This document shows positions 52,025-62,110 of a stretch of 64,000 nt of DNA, in pieces. The notes beneath the pieces are model-generated. The model was given only the letters and a program-made list of their open reading frames with translations. It had not been told where the DNA came from and ran no database searches. The stretch's first letter is position 1, and each line of letters opens with the position of its first letter. A program made the translations under genes and the position numbers. The DNA comes from Methyloprofundus sp. (GTDB lineage Bacteria > Pseudomonadota > Gammaproteobacteria > Methylococcales > Methylomonadaceae): the NCBI GenBank assembly GCA_016592635.1, contig AP023240.1:3389630-3453629 (forward strand), read 5' to 3'.

Positions 52025-53549
52025 TAATGCCGCTACCAGTCGTGCTAAGCCTTTTTATATCAACTAGTTGCATATTCACTTCTTGGTTTCGTCATTAATG
52101 GATATCCCTTCGGTCTTCGCTTAATAACTCTTGGTTGGTTTGGTCTGGATCGTTGCCCAATTTCCGATTAAGCTATGGCAACTAAGAGAGGGTGTATTAT
52201 TTTACCTAATGCTACTCCCGTTAGAGTGATACACAAACTGGCAGTGTTACGCATCAACTGAACAGCCGCCATAAAACTTAGGTGGCGGGGTTCTTTGTCA
52301 TTGAGACAGGCAGCTCTGGCAATGTTTGCGCGTATAAGGTTATAGGCCAAGAGATGTACTGCAATCTCTTTCTTAACCATCTCTGCTGTTTTGCATCGTA
52401 ACATCTCCATCCCCATATGTGTTTTTATTGTTCTAAAGTCCACCTCAATTTTCCAGCGCTGGTGATACAATTCAGCCAAGGATTTTTTGGGATAATTTTT
52501 AGCATTCATTAGCGTTGTAACATAGACTATTCCTTTGACTGAAAACTCACGAATCAAAAGCTCATCAGGTAACTCTGCCCATGCTGCATCGGATATCCAT
52601 ACAGTTTTTTTCTTCGGTTTTTTAACGATGATAATATGGTCTTTTGCGCCAAGGTACTGTCCTAGGCGAAAATCGTTTTTTACGGTACTCTGTTGTCTAA
52701 AAACCAGTGACGTTCCCTGTTTTGTCAGGAGAGCAATATTGGCGTAAGACGTGTAATAGCGGTCTCCGAGAAGTAAATCTTGCTTACAAAGAGACTGAAT
52801 CAAATCAGAAAATAGTGATGTTTCACCCGTTCTTTTGCCTTGGTAAGGGCCGATGGCATAATCAATGCAAGCTCCTGTTGCTAATGACACAAGACCTACC
52901 AATCGTACAATTGGGAATCCCAGCCCTTGCTTTTGTGCCTTTTGTTGAGGGTAGGTTTTCTGGTTACTGTCCGTATCGGGCATAAGCAAGGTCGTGCCAT
53001 CGACCAGCATAACTCGAAAACCATTCCACAACCAGTTACTTGATGCTTGGTTATGCAATACTTTACCCGAAGAGGTGACAGCTTCTTTTAAATGAGAGAG
53101 TTGCAGTCTTAGTCGGGATTTACAATAAGGCCCAGTGTTCATGGAGTTTGCATTATAATCCAAGCTAATTCGCTCGACTAAAACATGTGCAACTGCCTCC
53201 TTACAAGCCCCAGTTGAACTGAGCACTTGAAACAAAAAGGCTCTCAGTGTCACTAAAGGAGTAAAAACGGTGCTACGAACATTCCCTGATTGATGAATGG
53301 CTTCAATTAAACTATCAGGTATTAGTCCTTTAAAAGGAAGGTCATTGAGTTGAAAAAAGGTATTTTTAAAAGATCGGATTTGTAAGCGTAGGCTTAATCG
53401 GCTAGACTTTTTCATTAGTTAGGCTTTTTCTTAGGATTAATTGTTTTGTAGGAAATTCAATTATATCTAATAAGTAGTTAAAGCCTAACTTTAAACCTTA
53501 TAAAATCATTATTATTCAAGTACATGAGTTGCGACTGGTAGCGGCATTA
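52025..53549 (-). mobile_element. IS4-family insertion sequence, complete, with 11-bp target duplication
   Basis: The element (1525 bp) has terminal inverted repeats TAATGCCGCTACCAGTCG (52025-52042) and its complement (53532-53549). It is flanked by direct repeats CTGGCTGACCC (52014-52024 and 53550-53560), an 11-bp duplication as expected for IS4-type elements. It holds one intact transposase gene. It sits between higBA and a second IS. Confidence 0.85.
52168..53415 (-). CDS. IS4-family DDE transposase
   Basis: The 415-residue transposase has the DDE residues in VDGTTLLMPDTD, LLGDRYYTSYAN and YHQRWKIEVDFRTIKTHMGMEMLR (Y-R-E-K-like signature). The frame is intact and the element has good ends, so it could be active. 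Confidence 0.9.
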   Translation of the reverse strand: MKKSSRLSLRLQIRSFKNTFFQLNDLPFKGLIPDSLIEAIHQSGNVRSTVFTPLVTLRAFLFQVLSSTGACKEAVAHVLVERISLDYNANSMNTGPYCKSRLRLQLSHLKEAVTSSGKVLHNQASSNWLWNGFRVMLVDGTTLLMPDTDSNQKTYPQQKAQKQGLGFPIVRLVGLVSLATGACIDYAIGPYQGKRTGETSLFSDLIQSLCKQDLLLGDRYYTSYANIALLTKQGTSLVFRQQSTVKNDFRLGQYLGAKDHIIIVKKPKKKTVWISDAAWAELPDELLIREFSVKGIVYVTTLMNAKNYPKKSLAELYHQRWKIEVDFRTIKTHMGMEMLRCKTAEMVKKEIAVHLLAYNLIRANIARAACLNDKEPRHLSFMAAVQLMRNTASLCITLTGVALGKIIHPLLVAIA

Positions 53550-53560
53550 CTGGCTGACCC

Positions 53561-53680
53561 CTTGATTTTTAGAGATTCAATTATATCCAAATAGGGAGAA
53601 AGCTTAACTTTTATTTTTACCTTTTTTGCTTATATTCAATCACTTGTATTCTTACTGGTAGCGGTATTACTGGCTGCCCC
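53561..53680. mobile_element. Solo right end of an older related IS4 copy
   Basis: This stretch repeats the last ~110 bp of the intact IS in diverged form, ending ACTGGTAGCGGTATTACTGG as the intact copy ends GACTGGTAGCGGCATTACTGG, and is followed by CTGGCTGCCCC. An older element was probably inserted here first and later lost or replaced. Confidence 0.6.
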
Positions 53681-53687
53681 CCTTTCT

Positions 53688-53728
53688 AATCGGGTAAGAG
53701 CGAGAGAGAAACTCGCTCTTACCCGATT
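53688..53728. terminator. Perfect 17-bp hairpin at the original 3' end of the DUF4062 gene
   Basis: AATCGGGTAAGAGCGAG (53688-53704) pairs perfectly with CTCGCTCTTACCCGATT (53712-53728), loop of seven. It overlaps the reconstructed stop codon (53727-53729) of the DUF4062 gene and probably terminated it. Confidence 0.6.
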
Positions 53729-53794
53729 AAAATGGGATGTCATCATACTTTTCAAGAATTTTGGATCGTATTTCGATAGGTAAATTAATAAATA
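53727..53794 (-). pseudogene. Detached 3' end of the DUF4062 gene
   Basis: Twenty-two codons plus stop (starting V-F-I-N-L-P-I-E-I-R and ending Y-D-D-I-P-F) join in frame to codon 327 of the DUF4062 gene when the intervening IS and one 8-bp duplication are removed (982 + 68 = 1050 bases, 349 residues). Confidence 0.85.
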
Positions 53795-53802
53795 CTTTAT
53801 AA

Positions 53803-55460
53803 CTGAAGTTTCCAAAAAAATCATCAAGCCACCATGCGTAACAGTACGGCAATCAGTGGATTTATCGGGGAGTTGCTTGGTTTGGGGCAAACATGATTAA
53901 AATCCGGGTTCAATGCTGCCTCGGTAATGATGCGCCGCACGTCTGAAAAGGCAAAACTGGCGCGCCCTTTTACTTTGTGCCGACGCTCCGGATCCGCCTT
54001 TAAACGGTCGGCATAAATCCAGGTCAGCGTACTTGCCATCATACAAAAATTCAAATGATTGGTCACGGAATGCGCATTACGACACTGACTTTTTTGACTG
54101 CCGATGTCTTGTTTCAACTCCTTGAATCCTGATTCGATTTTCCATCTCGCACCATAAAACTCGATCATTTGCGTGACCGATAATGACAAGTCCGTGCTAA
54201 ACAGTGCGATCCATTGCGTTTTACGAAAAACCCACACGACGCGTACTTTGCATTTTAAACTTTTCAGCATGACAATGCGTTCATGGGCAAGTACCGTACG
54301 CTGTTTGCCATAAAGAGTCACCTGATATTCGGCGGCTTCGTGACGAATGCATTTTGCCATTTCTGTTGCCGAACCCAAGCGCTGGCCATATTTTCGAGGT
54401 CTCCCTCGCTGCCCAGATTGTCTTGTCTCGGGAAGATCATATAAAACACTATTACAGCGCAGGCGCGACAGAATATCAAACAGACTGCCTACCTCTTTGC
54501 GTACGGGCTTTAACAAACCTGCATTGCCAAACCAACTATCGGTCACCGCGAGTATTTGCTTGCCGGAAAAATGATTTGCAACCCCGATGATCATCTGTGC
54601 AGCTTGGCCGATCTTGGTTTCAAACGACTGCAATCGACCTTTGATCTTCGCTCGATCGGATTGTGCATCAATCGCTTTCTGTGGAAGGTAGTGGCGAAAA
54701 TCTAAAAACAAACAGGCCCAACGATTTTTTATTTGCTTGAGCAAACCGATGGCTACCACGTTTTGTGCCCATGGGTAGTCGCTTTGATTGGCTTTGGCCG
54801 CATGATCATAAATGGTTTCGCAACCAAAGATTTTTTTGCCCACTTTAGGGTTGATGAAATCATCCAGGGCAATTAATAATCGGTCGTCCGTTTCAGGGTT
54901 GTCGATCAGGTCCCAGGCTGTTTTCCATAAACCTTGCCACGGTAATTTGGTTGATGCCATGAATGTGTAAAATCGTTTCCGCTTGATATTGATACCGAAC
55001 AGCGTTTCAAGGCTACGCCATAAATTGGAACTAATGGAGGAAGTAAACGGGACAATGATCGACAGTAGCGTATAGGCAAATAACGAGGCTCTTTCTTTGC
55101 CGAGCGTGGTTTCTGAAAAATGTGATTGAAGAGGAGAAAGAAGATCGCGTAAAATGAACATGAATAAGGCTTTTTTGTTTGTATAATCAATTTGTTAGCA
55201 CTGTTTATTATACTACAAAATACAGCCTTATTCACTATCAACCTGTTGTTTTTAAAGTAATTTGTACTTAAATATTAGTAATTGCTAATATTTTTCGAAA
55301 ATTAGACTTTCCTAATATTTGGCTGACAAAAAACTGGGAAACCAAGCTCAGCGATATATGGACTGTATGATTTTAATTGGATCTTGCGTGCAATGTGGCA
55401 AACCCATTAATAAATGCCCCTATCCGCCTATATACCCCCCTAAAAACTGGGAAACTTCAG
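53803..55460 (-). mobile_element. IS element (IS4-like, 8-bp target duplication) inside the DUF4062 gene
   Basis: The 1658-bp element has inverted ends CTGAAGTTTCC (53803-53813) and GGAAACTTCAG (55450-55460) and is flanked by CTTTATAA (53795-53802 and 55461-55468). Its outermost ~120 bp at the right end are nearly the same as the MITE at 46818-46960. It carries one intact transposase gene. Confidence 0.85.
53824..55161 (-). CDS. DDE transposase of the 53803-55460 IS
   Basis: The 445-residue protein has DDE residues in LIALDDFINPKVGKKI, LAVTDSWFGNAGL and YGARWKIESGFKELKQDIG, an IS4-superfamily pattern (IS701- or related type; exact family not settled). Frame intact. Likely mobilises the 143-bp MITE. 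Confidence 0.85.
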   Translation of the reverse strand: MFILRDLLSPLQSHFSETTLGKERASLFAYTLLSIIVPFTSSISSNLWRSLETLFGINIKRKRFYTFMASTKLPWQGLWKTAWDLIDNPETDDRLLIALDDFINPKVGKKIFGCETIYDHAAKANQSDYPWAQNVVAIGLLKQIKNRWACLFLDFRHYLPQKAIDAQSDRAKIKGRLQSFETKIGQAAQMIIGVANHFSGKQILAVTDSWFGNAGLLKPVRKEVGSLFDILSRLRCNSVLYDLPETRQSGQRGRPRKYGQRLGSATEMAKCIRHEAAEYQVTLYGKQRTVLAHERIVMLKSLKCKVRVVWVFRKTQWIALFSTDLSLSVTQMIEFYGARWKIESGFKELKQDIGSQKSQCRNAHSVTNHLNFCMMASTLTWIYADRLKADPERRHKVKGRASFAFSDVRRIITEAALNPDFNHVCPKPSNSPINPLIAVLLRMVA

Positions 55461-57748: not shown

Positions 57749-58246
57749 CTACTCCCGCAAAAACTCGCGCAATTCATCTTTGATCAACAATTTCAGCGGG
57801 TGTTCAAAATCACAAGATGAGGTGGGCATGGCCAGATAGTATTGCTGTAATTTATCCGCAACCAACTGTTGTTCATAGTCATACAAAGACTGAAAGCCAC
57901 GCCCATATCGCCAGCCATAGCCCCAGCGATACCAGGTAGGAAATACGGGTGAGCCTCCGACCGTCACGCCATAATACATGGCATCAGCTAATAACTTATT
58001 GTCGGTCTTTTCTAAAACACATTGACGTAATGCCTGGTCTGCCTGCTTTTTTTGCTTGCGATTGCCACCTTGCCAATAGGCAATATCATGGGTAATGCAA
58101 CAACCACACCAGAGGTCTTGTTGTGCCCAGGTGCCGTCAGGAAATTGCGAACAACCATCACTGCTAAAGTCTTGTAATGATTCTGCATTCGCCATGCCTG
58201 TTAATATGCTTAGCAATAATAGACCGCTCAATAATGAATACCGCAT
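57749..58246 (-). CDS. Secreted phospholipase A2-like protein
   Basis: The 165-residue protein has a signal peptide 1-21 (ending MANAES) and the motif CGCCITHDIAYWQGG at ~47-61, matching the C-C-x-x-H-D-x-x-Y active-site helix of phospholipase A2 (His/Asp pair), preceded by a DGCSQFPDG loop. GGGAAAGG precedes ATG 58246. It lies downstream of the PspA-like/membrane-protein genes on the same strand and may take part in envelope lipid turnover. Enzyme activity is inferred from the motif. Confidence 0.72.
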   Translation of the reverse strand: MRYSLLSGLLLLSILTGMANAESLQDFSSDGCSQFPDGTWAQQDLWCGCCITHDIAYWQGGNRKQKKQADQALRQCVLEKTDNKLLADAMYYGVTVGGSPVFPTWYRWGYGWRYGRGFQSLYDYEQQLVADKLQQYYLAMPTSSCDFEHPLKLLIKDELREFLRE

Positions 58247-58272
58247 CGACCTTTCCCTTTTGGTAGAAACAC

Positions 58273-58299
58273 GAAAACCGACACGACTGGCCGGTTTTC
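58273..58299. terminator. Hairpin between the membrane-protein and PLA2-like genes
   Basis: GAAAACCG (58273-58280) pairs with CGGTTTTC (58292-58299). No clear T-tract; may attenuate or shape the transcript before the PLA2-like gene. Confidence 0.4.
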
Positions 58300-58403
58300 A
58301 TATTTTAATGAACTTTACACTTTTGTCATTATAATCCTTAACAATGACTCTTTGGGGCTTTTAATATTTCAGGGTTAACACCTCCTTTATTTTTTAGGTT
58401 TAA

Positions 58404-59720
58404 TTAATTCCAGTTTTTTAATTCTTTAAAGTAATAACGTGATTTGGCCATAATTTGTTTATCTCTATTTTCAATATATGAGGCAAATAAGATCACCACT
58501 AAGCCTAATACTATCGAACTAATCCACGGTGCGTTTGAGTACATTCTTACTGCATATTCCCAGTAAAATAAGAAGCCGCCGACAACACATATATTGCCAA
58601 TAAAGAACGAAGTTTTCTCACGATATTTAAAGCCTGCGACGGTTAACAATATACCTGCTGCAATAGTCGCGATGGGGGCCATGGCTTGATCGCCTGACAT
58701 TGCATTGAAAGTAATGGCTAAAGTCAACAAGGCACTGATGATACGGTATAAGTGTGCGTGGTAAGTGACTTGACTAGATAAAACAAACAAGATCATCGTA
58801 ATGGGTAATAAGGCATTAAGATGATGAATGCTTACGCCAAACTCGGCCAATACGCTTGCCCAGATACCGACCGCTGCTAAAGTGCCGACCCATTGCAATA
58901 CATAAATTATAAAAGCAGACTGCGTATAACGCTTGATGTCGTAGATACAATAGACTGCCACCATTGCTGCAACCACTATCGTCAATATATAAGAAGTCTG
59001 GTGTAATAAACTACGCCCCACCATAATCCATAAAGGCAAACTGATTAATACGCGTGCTGCCATACCTTCTTTTAAGCGCATGCTGTTGTCAGTATGTAAA
59101 GTTTGTTCAACGCGTCTTAAGTAGATAAACAAACCGGCAATAATGATGGGAACCAAGTCTGCATCACGTATAGGTAACATGAGCAATACACTACCGACTA
59201 TGGCTGCAGTTAACAAGGTTTTAAGGTACTTACGCGCTAAGATAGAATAGCTGGCATAACTGACCAAGAATAATAACAAACCTGTAATAACCAAATCCAA
59301 AGCGATAACGGTCGGACTGACTCCCGTAAATTGCAACCAATCATATTCAGGCTGCAAGGCATGTTGCTTAAACAGGCCAGCATAAATCATGGAACTAACT
59401 TGTGATACCTGTACCGATAAAAAACCAGTACCTAAACCAAAGAATATCCGCGCGCCTTTGGTTTCATGAAATAAATAGGCACAGATCAAACCGCCTCCGC
59501 ACAGTAGCAAGGTCAGACCTAAGCCTATCCAATAGCGATAAGTGGGAGAAATCCCTGCATGCCCTTGCAGCATAAAGCTAATCGCAGACAAGACAATTAA
59601 GATGGAGCCAACCCAACGTAGGTAGGTGGTAATTTTGGCAGTCAAATTTTTTGCTGGTTTACCCTCCTCTGGTGATTCGACTGGGTGAATATGCATTTCT
59701 GTCGGTTCATTTGCGTACAT
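58404..59720 (-). CDS. Polytopic membrane protein in PspA-like operon, unknown
   Basis: The 438-residue protein has a ~30-residue cytoplasmic N-terminus and about 12 membrane helices. Loops are short and there is no recognised catalytic motif. AGGAG precedes ATG 59720, nine bases after the PspA-like gene: translated from the same mRNA. No family recognised; perhaps the membrane partner of the PspA-like protein. Confidence 0.72.
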   Translation of the reverse strand: MYANEPTEMHIHPVESPEEGKPAKNLTAKITTYLRWVGSILIVLSAISFMLQGHAGISPTYRYWIGLGLTLLLCGGGLICAYLFHETKGARIFFGLGTGFLSVQVSQVSSMIYAGLFKQHALQPEYDWLQFTGVSPTVIALDLVITGLLLFLVSYASYSILARKYLKTLLTAAIVGSVLLMLPIRDADLVPIIIAGLFIYLRRVEQTLHTDNSMRLKEGMAARVLISLPLWIMVGRSLLHQTSYILTIVVAAMVAVYCIYDIKRYTQSAFIIYVLQWVGTLAAVGIWASVLAEFGVSIHHLNALLPITMILFVLSSQVTYHAHLYRIISALLTLAITFNAMSGDQAMAPIATIAAGILLTVAGFKYREKTSFFIGNICVVGGFLFYWEYAVRMYSNAPWISSIVLGLVVILFASYIENRDKQIMAKSRYYFKELKNWN

Positions 59721-59729
59721 GATGCTCTC

Positions 59730-60395
59730 CTAGTTTTTATCTTCTGAAGTATTAGACTCTGCTGTTAATTCATCCAGCATCATTTTTAAGGCCAAATCAT
59801 CTTCTGCTTGCTCAAAGTCTTTTGCCAAAGTATCGATTTCAATCAATGTCTCTGGAGTATCAAACTCGGAGCTGACTACCGAACCCTCCCAACGGTCGAA
59901 GACATTTTGCACATCTTGCAAAGAATTGCCTTGTTTATCATATAAAGCGTCTTTAACACTGGCCCGATTTTGTCTAGCAGCCAAGATTTCCTTTTTGTTT
60001 TTTAAGTCTTGTAACTGCTCTTGAATCGCCTCTAAATCAGAGCGTATTTTTTCTTCTTGAGCAATACTTTGTTCAAGTTGTTGCTTCCGTACGGCAATTA
60101 GCTTTTGTACTTGGCGTAAGCGTTTCACACATTGTAGAGCGGTTTGTTCATCAGTCTCTCTGGCTTGAATAGCGCGTTCAGACCAAAGCTGGGCTTGTTC
60201 TTGTTGTTCTCCTAGTTGTTTTTGATATTGAGCCGACATTTTGCTAATGCGGTGTAAATGCAGATTGGTTTTGCCCGCGATAGCTTGCAGATCTTGAATG
60301 GCTGCTGCGGCAAGTGCTTCATGGTTTTCAAAATCATCAGCTACATGGTCGATTTGGCTTTTAATGCTGACGAAGATACGTTTTAAACTACTCAT
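59730..60395 (-). CDS. PspA/IM30-like coiled-coil protein
   Basis: From ATG 60395 (AAGGAT upstream) the protein has 221 residues: MSSLKRIFVSIKSQIDHVADDFENHEA..., then a long coiled coil (~30-150) and an acidic C-terminus. Length and helix pattern match PspA/Vipp1 proteins that bind stressed inner membrane. Divergent from, and probably controlled by, the sigma54 activator at 60647. Confidence 0.78.
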   Translation of the reverse strand: MSSLKRIFVSIKSQIDHVADDFENHEALAAAAIQDLQAIAGKTNLHLHRISKMSAQYQKQLGEQQEQAQLWSERAIQARETDEQTALQCVKRLRQVQKLIAVRKQQLEQSIAQEEKIRSDLEAIQEQLQDLKNKKEILAARQNRASVKDALYDKQGNSLQDVQNVFDRWEGSVVSSEFDTPETLIEIDTLAKDFEQAEDDLALKMMLDELTAESNTSEDKN

Positions 60396-60434
60396 GATGA
60401 TTATCCTTTTTTTGTGTAAAGTCATAATCACTAT

Positions 60435-60451
60435 TGCAATGGCTGTGCCAA
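60435..60451 (-). promoter_or_regulatory. sigma54 promoter of the PspA-like operon
   Basis: On the minus strand, TTGGCACA-GCCA-TTGCA is a near-perfect RpoN -24/-12 element, about 40 bases upstream of the PspA-like start. Confidence 0.85.
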
Positions 60452-60458
60452 GATTAAA

Positions 60459-60506
60459 TTTACTTTAAAATCAATAAGATAATAATTTTATTGATTTTAA
60501 AGTAAA
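60459..60506. promoter_or_regulatory. Perfect 19-bp inverted repeat upstream of the sigma54 promoter
   Basis: TTTACTTTAAAATCAATAA (60459-60477) and its complement (60488-60506) flank a 10-bp centre, eight bases upstream of the -24 box. Candidate activator-binding site; alternatively a hairpin for the leader on the other strand. Confidence 0.6.
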
Positions 60507-60578
60507 ACACATGAACATTTATTGCGTACAGGCTATACTTAAGATGAACAAGTATCCAAAAAATACTCCGTAATGCCT

Positions 60579-60631
60579 CATGACGCTGGAGCATCATTGG
60601 CTGCATTCCCACGCTGGAGCGTGTGGAACGA
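60579..60631. repeat. REP-like palindromic repeat
   Basis: Two related GACGCTGGAGC / CACGCTGGAGCGTG units, of the ATTCCCACGCTGGAGCGTG type, form a hairpin just upstream of the activator gene. Such repeats are dispersed in many gammaproteobacteria. Confidence 0.55.
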
Positions 60632-60646
60632 TAATAAAATAAAACC

Positions 60647-62110
60647 ATGCAAAAACTATTACCTGAACAACGTGATTTTTTTAAGCAAGTTGCCGAACTG
60701 GCTTTTGCCAACCCATTTAGTCGCCAGCGCGAACAAGCTGATTGTGCTTTATTAAATATTGCCATGGGTAGCATGGATATTTATGATCGTAGCGAGCAGA
60801 TTCAAGTTCATTTACTGGCACAATTAAGCAAACTACAGCCCTTAGATAAATTTCGCATTAGCGATTACCAAGGGTCTATAAAAGAAACCATAAAATTTGC
60901 TTGGCTGTTTTATCAATTCCATGAATTCCAGGCTGAGTTCAATCAATTTATTGATGCTCAACGTGCTGCAGGCGATAAACCCATTACACTTCCCTGCGCG
61001 CAAGCTTTGAGTCAACGTTTCTTACAGGCAAATTTCAGCCACGAGGAAACTGAAAAATTTATTGCCTTGTTTTATCAATTACACCGTGGCTTTTATTTTA
61101 TTATCTCTGCCATTTCAGGAGACTGCCCTGCCATTATCGAATTACGCATGCGTCTGTGGAACAATATTTTCACCTTTAATCCACAATGGTATATGGATTA
61201 TCTCTGCGGCAAAATGGAGGACTTTTCGACACTGCTATTAGGGGCAACAGGCACTGGGAAAACCTTAGTCGCACATACGATTGGCTGCTCAGGTTATATT
61301 CCTTTTGATATGGACAAAAATCGTTTTAAAGAAAGCTTTACCCGTTCTTTTCAAGCGATCAACTTATCGCAATACCCTGCATCGCTACTGGAATCAGAAC
61401 TATTCGGTCATAAAAAAGGCGCGTTTACAGGTGCTATCGACCATCATGAAGGTTTATTTTTCCGTTGCAGTGAACACGGTGCTATCTTTATCGATGAAAT
61501 TGGTGATATTGATATGCCCACGCAGGTGAAACTACTTAACGTCATTCAGGATCGGGTCTTTTGTCCGGTGGGTAGTCATGAAAAATTGCGTTTTTCTGGA
61601 CGGGTCATTAGTGCCACTAACCGTAATATTGACCAATTGCGGCAAACTGGAGATTTTAGAGATGACCTTTATTATCGCTTGTGCTCTGATGTTATTAAGG
61701 TACCTAGCTTACAACAGCGCTTACAAGAGAACCCGGCAGAACTAGGGCATTTAATCAATAGGCTCCTACAACGAGTCACCAATATTCCTGCACCACTATT
61801 GGCAGACAGCATCGAAAAGCATATAAGTAAAAATGTACCTGACTATTATGCTTGGCCTGGTAATGTACGCGAATTGGAGCAATGTATTCGCCGTATTTGC
61901 CTCACAGGTACTTGTAGCATTAATGCAGAAACTAATTTGAACGACCTGCATAATGGCTTTAACCTACCAGATAATGCGGGTGAAACCAGTAGTCAGATAT
62001 TATTACAGCGTTATTGTCGTTTTCTTTATGAACGCCATAATAGTTATGAAGCGGTAGCCAGAATTACCCAATTAGATCGGCGTACGGTTAGGAAGTATAT
62101 TGTTGATTAG
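60647..62110 (+). CDS. sigma54-dependent enhancer-binding protein (psp-like activator)
   Basis: The 487-residue protein has an N-terminal helical domain of ~185 residues unlike the usual receiver, GAF or PAS sensors, a central AAA+ domain at ~195-425 (Walker A GATGTGKT, GAFTGA loop, Walker B IFIDEIGD, R-finger region RDDLYYRL, WPGNVRELEQ) and a Fis-like helix-turn-helix at ~455-485 (YEAVARITQLDRRTVRKY). It is divergent from the PspA-like operon with its sigma54 promoter. PspF normally lacks an N-terminal sensor, so this is a distinct type. Confidence 0.88.
   Translation: MQKLLPEQRDFFKQVAELAFANPFSRQREQADCALLNIAMGSMDIYDRSEQIQVHLLAQLSKLQPLDKFRISDYQGSIKETIKFAWLFYQFHEFQAEFNQFIDAQRAAGDKPITLPCAQALSQRFLQANFSHEETEKFIALFYQLHRGFYFIISAISGDCPAIIELRMRLWNNIFTFNPQWYMDYLCGKMEDFSTLLLGATGTGKTLVAHTIGCSGYIPFDMDKNRFKESFTRSFQAINLSQYPASLLESELFGHKKGAFTGAIDHHEGLFFRCSEHGAIFIDEIGDIDMPTQVKLLNVIQDRVFCPVGSHEKLRFSGRVISATNRNIDQLRQTGDFRDDLYYRLCSDVIKVPSLQQRLQENPAELGHLINRLLQRVTNIPAPLLADSIEKHISKNVPDYYAWPGNVRELEQCIRRICLTGTCSINAETNLNDLHNGFNLPDNAGETSSQILLQRYCRFLYERHNSYEAVARITQLDRRTVRKYIVD

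Follow-up and report, generated by a model that had tools for sequence, protein, structure and literature searches.

A sigma54 activator with its own helical input domain beside a PspA-type gene pair in Methylococcales: a predicted membrane-damage response with exchangeable targets

The locus and its products

PspA-type systems are widespread; to our knowledge, how they are switched on outside enterobacteria is mostly unknown. The locus described here lies in a 64,000-nucleotide stretch of the genome of Methyloprofundus sp. (assembly GCA_016592635.1, contig AP023240.1, forward-strand positions 3,389,630 to 3,453,629), hereafter the window, whose numbering is used throughout. In this locus, a gene for a sigma54 enhancer-binding protein (EBP) with its own N-terminal input domain (EBP-N) is transcribed divergently from a gene of the PspA/IM30 family, which is followed by mem, encoding a polytopic membrane protein (MEM), and by an optional gene for a secreted PLA2-like protein (Table 1). 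All four open reading frames (ORFs) had been proposed in an earlier reading of the window, the original prediction, and were recovered at the same coordinates.

The activator itself was correctly recognized in that reading. The Pfam scan places the start of PF00158 at residue 191, Walker A (GATGTGKT), Walker B (FIDEIGD) and GAFTGA are all intact, and these motifs are kept across 14 EBP orthologues, one of which has GAFSGA. The claim of a novel input domain was likewise upheld: residues 1-190 match no Pfam family above cut-off, giving scattered sub-threshold matches alone, and AlphaFold2 (AF2) models them as a separate, all-helical domain with good confidence (pLDDT 88.7, pTM 0.85). A Foldseek comparison of this model with the PDB returned zero fold matches at E≤0.001, the nuclear-receptor-like top matches being discarded for TM-scores below 0.2, and a sequence search of the PDB gave nothing useful (best match E 0.025). 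Within EBP-N, 20 columns are invariant over 13 sequences and 16 in a wider set that includes genomes with other target genes, so that the conservation is independent of PspA as a neighbour.

Opposite the activator, the predicted PspA/IM30-like gene was confirmed by a PF04012 score of 42.8 bits (curated cut-off 33.9). Its start is the ATG at 60395 and not the GTG at 60431, because the promoter occupies 60435-60451. The neighbouring membrane protein is polytopic and 438 residues long, as expected; the estimate of about 12 helices did not hold, since the AF2 model contains 14 long helices (mean pLDDT 78.9). No family scored above cut-off for MEM in the Pfam and NCBIfam scans, which gave scattered sub-threshold matches alone; Foldseek found nothing in the PDB at E≤0.001, the PDB sequence search gave nothing useful, and relatives of MEM were not found on the plasmids searched. 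The secreted PLA2-like protein was upheld in part: it has a signal-peptide-like N-terminus and a CCITHD motif, and the CCxxHD catalytic motif residues C49, C50, H53 and D54 are invariant in eight PLA2-like sequences, but it falls below the Pfam PLA2 cut-off (PF09056 and PF00068 tested; PF09056 15.8 bits against 29.4). This gene was rejected as a core member, being present in eight distinct, close loci and missing from most.

Table 1. Features of the EBP-pspA-mem locus in window coordinates
Feature	Coordinates	Strand	Evidence
EBP: sigma54 enhancer-binding protein, 487 aa, own N-terminal input domain	60647..62110	+	PF00158 E 6.8e-43; orthologues in 27/201 order genomes
EBP-N: EBP residues 1-190, all-alpha input domain, 9 helices	60647..61216	+	AF2; no Pfam or PDB-fold match
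EBP AAA+ sigma54-interaction domain: GAFTGA, Walker A, Walker B, family-specific longer loop replacing the PspF W56 loop	61217..61912	+	
EBP C-terminal Fis-like helix-turn-helix (...YEAVARITQLDRRTVRKYIVD)	61994..62107	+	C-terminus conserved in orthologue alignment; helix-turn-helix by resemblance
Upstream activating sequence 1 (UAS1): 17-bp dyad, pspA sense TGTTCATCTTAAGTATA, predicted EBP site	60534..60550	.	Paired with UAS2, conserved across loci
UAS2: 17-bp dyad, pspA sense TACGCAATAAATGTTCA; centres of UAS1 and UAS2 22 bp apart	60512..60528	.	
sigma54 -24/-12 promoter TTGGCACAGCCATTGCA, 39 nt 5' of the pspA ATG	60435..60451	-	Position kept in 37/38 loci
pspA-like gene, PspA/IM30 family, 221 aa	59730..60395	-	PF04012; adjoins EBP and MEM in 27/27 module genomes
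mem: 438-aa polytopic membrane protein, 9 bp 3' of pspA	58404..59720	-	Same genomes as EBP-N; AF2
Optional fourth gene: PLA2-like secreted protein, CCxxHD motif	57749..58246	-	C49 C50 H53 D54 invariant in 8 loci

Conservation and distribution of the unit

Judged by sequence comparison, EBP, pspA and mem form a conserved unit. In a first search, MEM was found in 17 of 61 relatives, and in loci long enough to judge, the linkage and order of the three genes are kept at MEM identities as low as about 30%; the one exception is L023, where EBP is displaced. An order-wide sample of 201 Methylococcales genomes, each at least 90% complete, gave matches to the MEM profile in 27 genomes and to the EBP-N profile in exactly the same 27. 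PspA, detected with the Pfam model, lies between EBP and MEM in all 27, one of them a fragmented genome with MEM split over two contigs. The original prediction had made its reading depend on co-occurrence of the activator N-terminus and the membrane protein with PspA-like genes across genomes; it passed this test, as they co-occur throughout this set. The log10 P of the co-occurrence is -33 if genomes are taken as independent and -12 at genus level; the genomes are not independent, and the distribution is patchy. RpoN is encoded in the genome of the window and was found in 26 of the 27 module genomes.

Beyond the order the module is rare: EBP-N was found in one other genome among 397 genomes sampled phylum-wide, and MEM in no other genome among 299. 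A scan of 84,980 species genomes with degenerate patterns, which may miss distant relatives, yielded 39 loci, nearly all from Methylococcales methanotrophs or from gammaproteobacterial metagenome-assembled genomes (MAGs) with the same layout. The remainder come from a Thiodiazotropha MAG, a Verrucomicrobia MAG, a Kiritimatiellae MAG and one further bacterium. In the Thiodiazotropha MAG, pspA, mem and EBP are linked in another arrangement, with a sigma54-like site 38 nt from the pspA ATG. Cultivated methanotrophs among the carriers include Methylobacter marinus A45 (L051) and Methylovulum miyakonense (L059). The three proteins, EBP, PspA and MEM, have correlated distance matrices over 35 loci (r 0.93-0.94), as would be expected for a unit inherited together. 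No description of the unit was found in the open-access literature.

Several individual genomes depart from the common layout. Two close relatives carry a two-gene cassette resembling a RelBE-type toxin-antitoxin pair between EBP and pspA (L021:5991-6520 and L022:8723-9252), and one genome (G610) carries the module twice, on contigs C57 and C147. In an Ifr-MOX MAG (G036; loci L030/L067), EBP contains an in-frame TAG (L030:3090-3092) and pspA and mem remain; the DNA-binding RpoN domain was not found in this assembly of about 520 contigs. The activator and the sigma factor could have decayed together, but the case is only suggestive.

Promoter and operator architecture

The near-consensus -24/-12 promoter proposed at pspA was borne out both in the window and across loci. 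The window site fits the consensus and outscores 200 of 200 shuffles. With pspA starts set by homology, 37 of 38 distinct loci have a -24/-12 site 32-53 nt 5' of the pspA ATG; GG-N10-GC is exact in 33, and the conserved sites score above at least 97% of 200 shuffles in every such locus. The pspA ORF is shortened in the one locus that fails the promoter test (L020).

The gap between EBP and pspA also contains two imperfect 17-bp dyads (consensus TATNCATNNNATGNATA) whose centres are separated by 22 bp; they usually lie 125 and 147 bp before the pspA ATG. At this spacing of 22 the best pairs average a score of 18.2, against 14.7-15.7 at all other spacings from 17 to 44. The pair is significant (p≤0.01, Markov shuffles) in 25 of 36 loci, including the UAS1/UAS2 pair of the window locus (p=0.003). 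Across 520,656 bases of the 39 loci, pairs scoring at least 18 were confined to the gap next to EBP, where 24 loci have them; after each comes a sigma54-like site that faces the adjacent gene. Many of the scanned loci also served to spot the motif; the independent test is provided by four held-out loci with other targets (L071, L072, L074, L089), in each of which the same pair is present (p<1/300) with a sigma54 site facing the target. The dyads are predicted operators to which EBP would bind. One of the dyads extends over the start codon of EBP in several lineages, an arrangement that would allow EBP to regulate its own gene. In addition, many loci have an IHF-like site at a comparable position between the operators and the promoter (mean best score 7.8 of 9, against 7.0 in shuffles), which by itself is weak evidence.

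The window further contains a perfect 19-bp inverted repeat with a 10-nt spacer (60459-60506) between operators and promoter. It was not taken as part of the system, as it was not found in the other loci read and seems peculiar to this genome.

Common descent alone might keep these genes adjacent, with the PspA-like product acting as a housekeeping coiled-coil protein outside EBP control. The loci come mostly from one bacterial order, and shared ancestry therefore contributes to the synteny. Against this stand the patchy distribution with perfect co-presence and co-absence, the fixed promoter position, the paired operators, and the Thiodiazotropha MAG, in which the genes are rearranged yet linked and the sigma54-like site is kept. 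Descent as the whole explanation is thus very improbable, and an EBP-controlled sigma54 regulon is highly likely.

Exchange of target genes

In three loci with neither pspA nor mem nearby (L071, L072, L089), EBP adjoins a gene for a 1123-1145-residue protein that joins an MFS transporter to an acyltransferase and an AMP-ligase, identified as the LplT-Aas lysophospholipid-recycling protein. The NCBIfam model for acyl-[ACP]--phospholipid O-acyltransferase gives 1679.5 bits in L089 (cut-off 1349) and 1133.5 bits in L071, just below a cut-off of 1221. LplT and Aas re-acylate lysophospholipids (PMC11416262), and a single-chain protein with LplT and acylation domains is present in Pseudomonas aeruginosa (PMC8926400). 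The gaps of all three loci hold the paired dyads, with the sigma54 site facing the acyltransferase. The lplT-aas genomes, two related and one separate, lie outside the order. Other targets were found as well: in L074:2854-6000, EBP and its operators stand beside a VIT-vWA protein followed by a rhomboid protease, and in a Methylococcaceae MAG (L060:3995-5700) they stand beside a lipoprotein followed by a rhomboid, the EBP frame being in two pieces. The genomes that hold L071, L072 and L074 lack MEM, as does G161, and lplT-aas was not recognized in the fetched Methylococcales loci, where the target is pspA-mem.

The presence of the same activator and dyads beside different genes indicates that EBP and its operators travel as a cassette and that the genes under their control vary. 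The connection with phospholipid turnover, first suggested by the PLA2-like gene, appears better supported by the placement of EBP and operators beside lplT-aas. Alternatively, EBP could respond not to lipid damage but to a broader stress on energy supply or envelope, such as loss of the proton motive force; lplT-aas and the other targets would then be useful envelope genes captured by one regulator. The diversity of targets (pspA-mem, lplT-aas, VIT-vWA/rhomboid, lipoprotein/rhomboid) agrees with such a general input. A lipid theme recurs, however: lplT-aas is the neighbour in three genomes that lie outside the order, and part of the order has a PLA2-like gene in the operon. This argues the other way and leaves general stress sensing somewhat unlikely.

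Comparison with known systems

The closest known layout is that of PspF-PspABC in E. coli, which shares a sigma54 activator divergent from a PspA/IM30 gene, a UAS and -24/-12 arrangement, and a membrane partner gene beside pspA. Unlike EBP with its 190-residue input domain, PspF has no N-terminal regulatory domain, and the 438-residue MEM stands in place of PspB/PspC. The original claim that PspB and PspC are missing was confirmed: PspB was found in none of the 27 module genomes, that of the window included, and PspC in three of the 27, never within the module and not in the genome of the window. EBP fails the PspF equivalog scores (TIGR02974, 138.7 bits against a cut-off of 443.55; PRK11608, 119.4 against 529), and E. 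coli PspF aligns to it at about 27-32% over the AAA+ region only. The unit is Psp-like in its predicted layout yet fails the defining tests for PspF and pspFABC.

This resemblance raises the possibility that PspA inhibits EBP in trans, that MEM, replacing PspB/C, draws PspA to the stressed membrane and so frees EBP, and that EBP-N is the docking site for PspA. The divergent EBP/pspA layout and sigma54 control do match E. coli, and within the order sample EBP never occurs without pspA and mem. However, EBP-N and the AAA+ loops are equally conserved beside lplT-aas, where PspA is missing from the fetched flanks and MEM from the genome, and PspA of the unit is merely 14-23% identical to E. coli PspA. 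In E. coli, PspA inhibits PspF through the W56 loop (PMC6003685); in EBP this loop is replaced by a longer one with Phe or Tyr at that place in all aligned members, whether linked to PspA or not, and control by the W56 route was accordingly rejected as a shared feature. On this evidence, trans-inhibition by PspA is rather unlikely.

Other comparisons concern the input domain and MEM. NtrC-like activators bearing ACT or PAS domains occur in gammaproteobacterial psp operons (Ravi et al. 2024, PMC11237479); they resemble EBP in having an N-terminal domain and lying near psp genes, whereas EBP-N is all-alpha, has no Pfam ACT/PAS match and is not accompanied by PspB/C. RtcR is the best NCBIfam match of the EBP AAA+ domain (183.6 bits, below the cut-off of 650), with an N-terminal domain of similar size. 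That domain is a Rossmann-like CARF domain (PMC4012209), whereas the modelled, all-alpha EBP-N is not CARF-like, and no rtc genes were recognized beside EBP. With respect to MEM, Arc3A/DUF2339 and DUF2157 (LiaF-type) proteins are also many-helix inner-membrane proteins, tied to envelope or lysophospholipid defence; Arc3A is polytopic, and aas genes neighbour arc3 in many bacteria (PMC8926400). By family score, DUF2157 reached E 0.005 in one of 16 MEM members and DUF2339 matched none of the 16, with nothing above cut-off.

Apart from the unit, the genome of the window carries a second PspA-like gene (L094:3716-9548; C1:1599715-1605547), whose neighbours encode a small membrane protein, a vWA protein and, divergently, a two-component system. 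Two transposase-like genes lie upstream of the region in the window (52168-55161).

Proposed mechanism

The unit is best read as a variant of the Psp-type response in which EBP is a cis-regulated envelope-repair switch. In the resting state, the helical N-terminal domain of EBP would keep the AAA+ ring inactive, and a membrane-lipid damage signal would lift this inhibition. EBP, bound to the paired UAS dyads upstream of pspA, would then contact sigma54-RNA polymerase at the -24/-12 promoter through DNA looping, an IHF-like site lying between them in many loci, and activate pspA-mem together with the PLA2-like gene where present. PspA would serve as a membrane scaffold and MEM as its integral-membrane partner, both acting as inner-membrane effectors. 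In other bacteria, the same switch would drive lysophospholipid re-acylation through lplT-aas, or surface-protein/rhomboid genes. Sequence comparison establishes the conserved unit, the promoter, the paired operators, RpoN and the change of targets; EBP binding to the dyads, cis-inhibition, the kind of signal and the repair function are inferences. A lipid-damage signal is suggested by two lipid-related genes, lplT-aas as the alternative target (three genomes) and the PLA2-like gene (eight loci). In E. coli, lysophospholipids have been put forward as signals of the envelope (PMC13170283), which, with the role of LplT-Aas, makes a lipid signal a plausible hypothesis.

Several observations weigh against this reading. 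Of the 36 loci, 11 show the dyad pair weakly or not at all (p>0.01). The majority of order genomes lack the module, which is therefore accessory. The vWA/rhomboid and lipoprotein/rhomboid targets give no clear pointer to phospholipids, the lplT-aas association comes from three genomes of which two are related, and the signal is deduced from neighbouring genes only.

Taken with these points, the locus is still probably a self-contained, sigma54-switched membrane-damage response that works as proposed. An envelope-stress function may be inferred for the module, and a role in envelope or membrane repair is similarly probable. A wider proposal is more tentative and somewhat doubtful: EBP-N may represent a new class of bacterial domain that senses membrane-lipid damage, such as lysophospholipid, and EBP, dyads and promoter may be a portable cassette that is joined in different bacteria to different envelope-repair genes (pspA-mem, lplT-aas, vWA/rhomboid). 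Lysophospholipid as the actual ligand of EBP is a rather improbable, speculative candidate.

Implications

The locus provides a PspA system whose sigma54 activator brings its own predicted sensor, together with a clear promoter and operator map and a membrane partner of no assigned family, MEM. The reuse of EBP and its operators beside lysophospholipid-recycling genes in unrelated bacteria leads to a concrete hypothesis for the sensed signal, which is open to test in methanotrophs in culture and in reporter strains of E. coli. If EBP-N does bind lipids, it would constitute a cytoplasmic transcriptional sensor of membrane-lipid damage, at a time when lysophospholipid signalling in bacteria has only just been proposed (PMC13170283).

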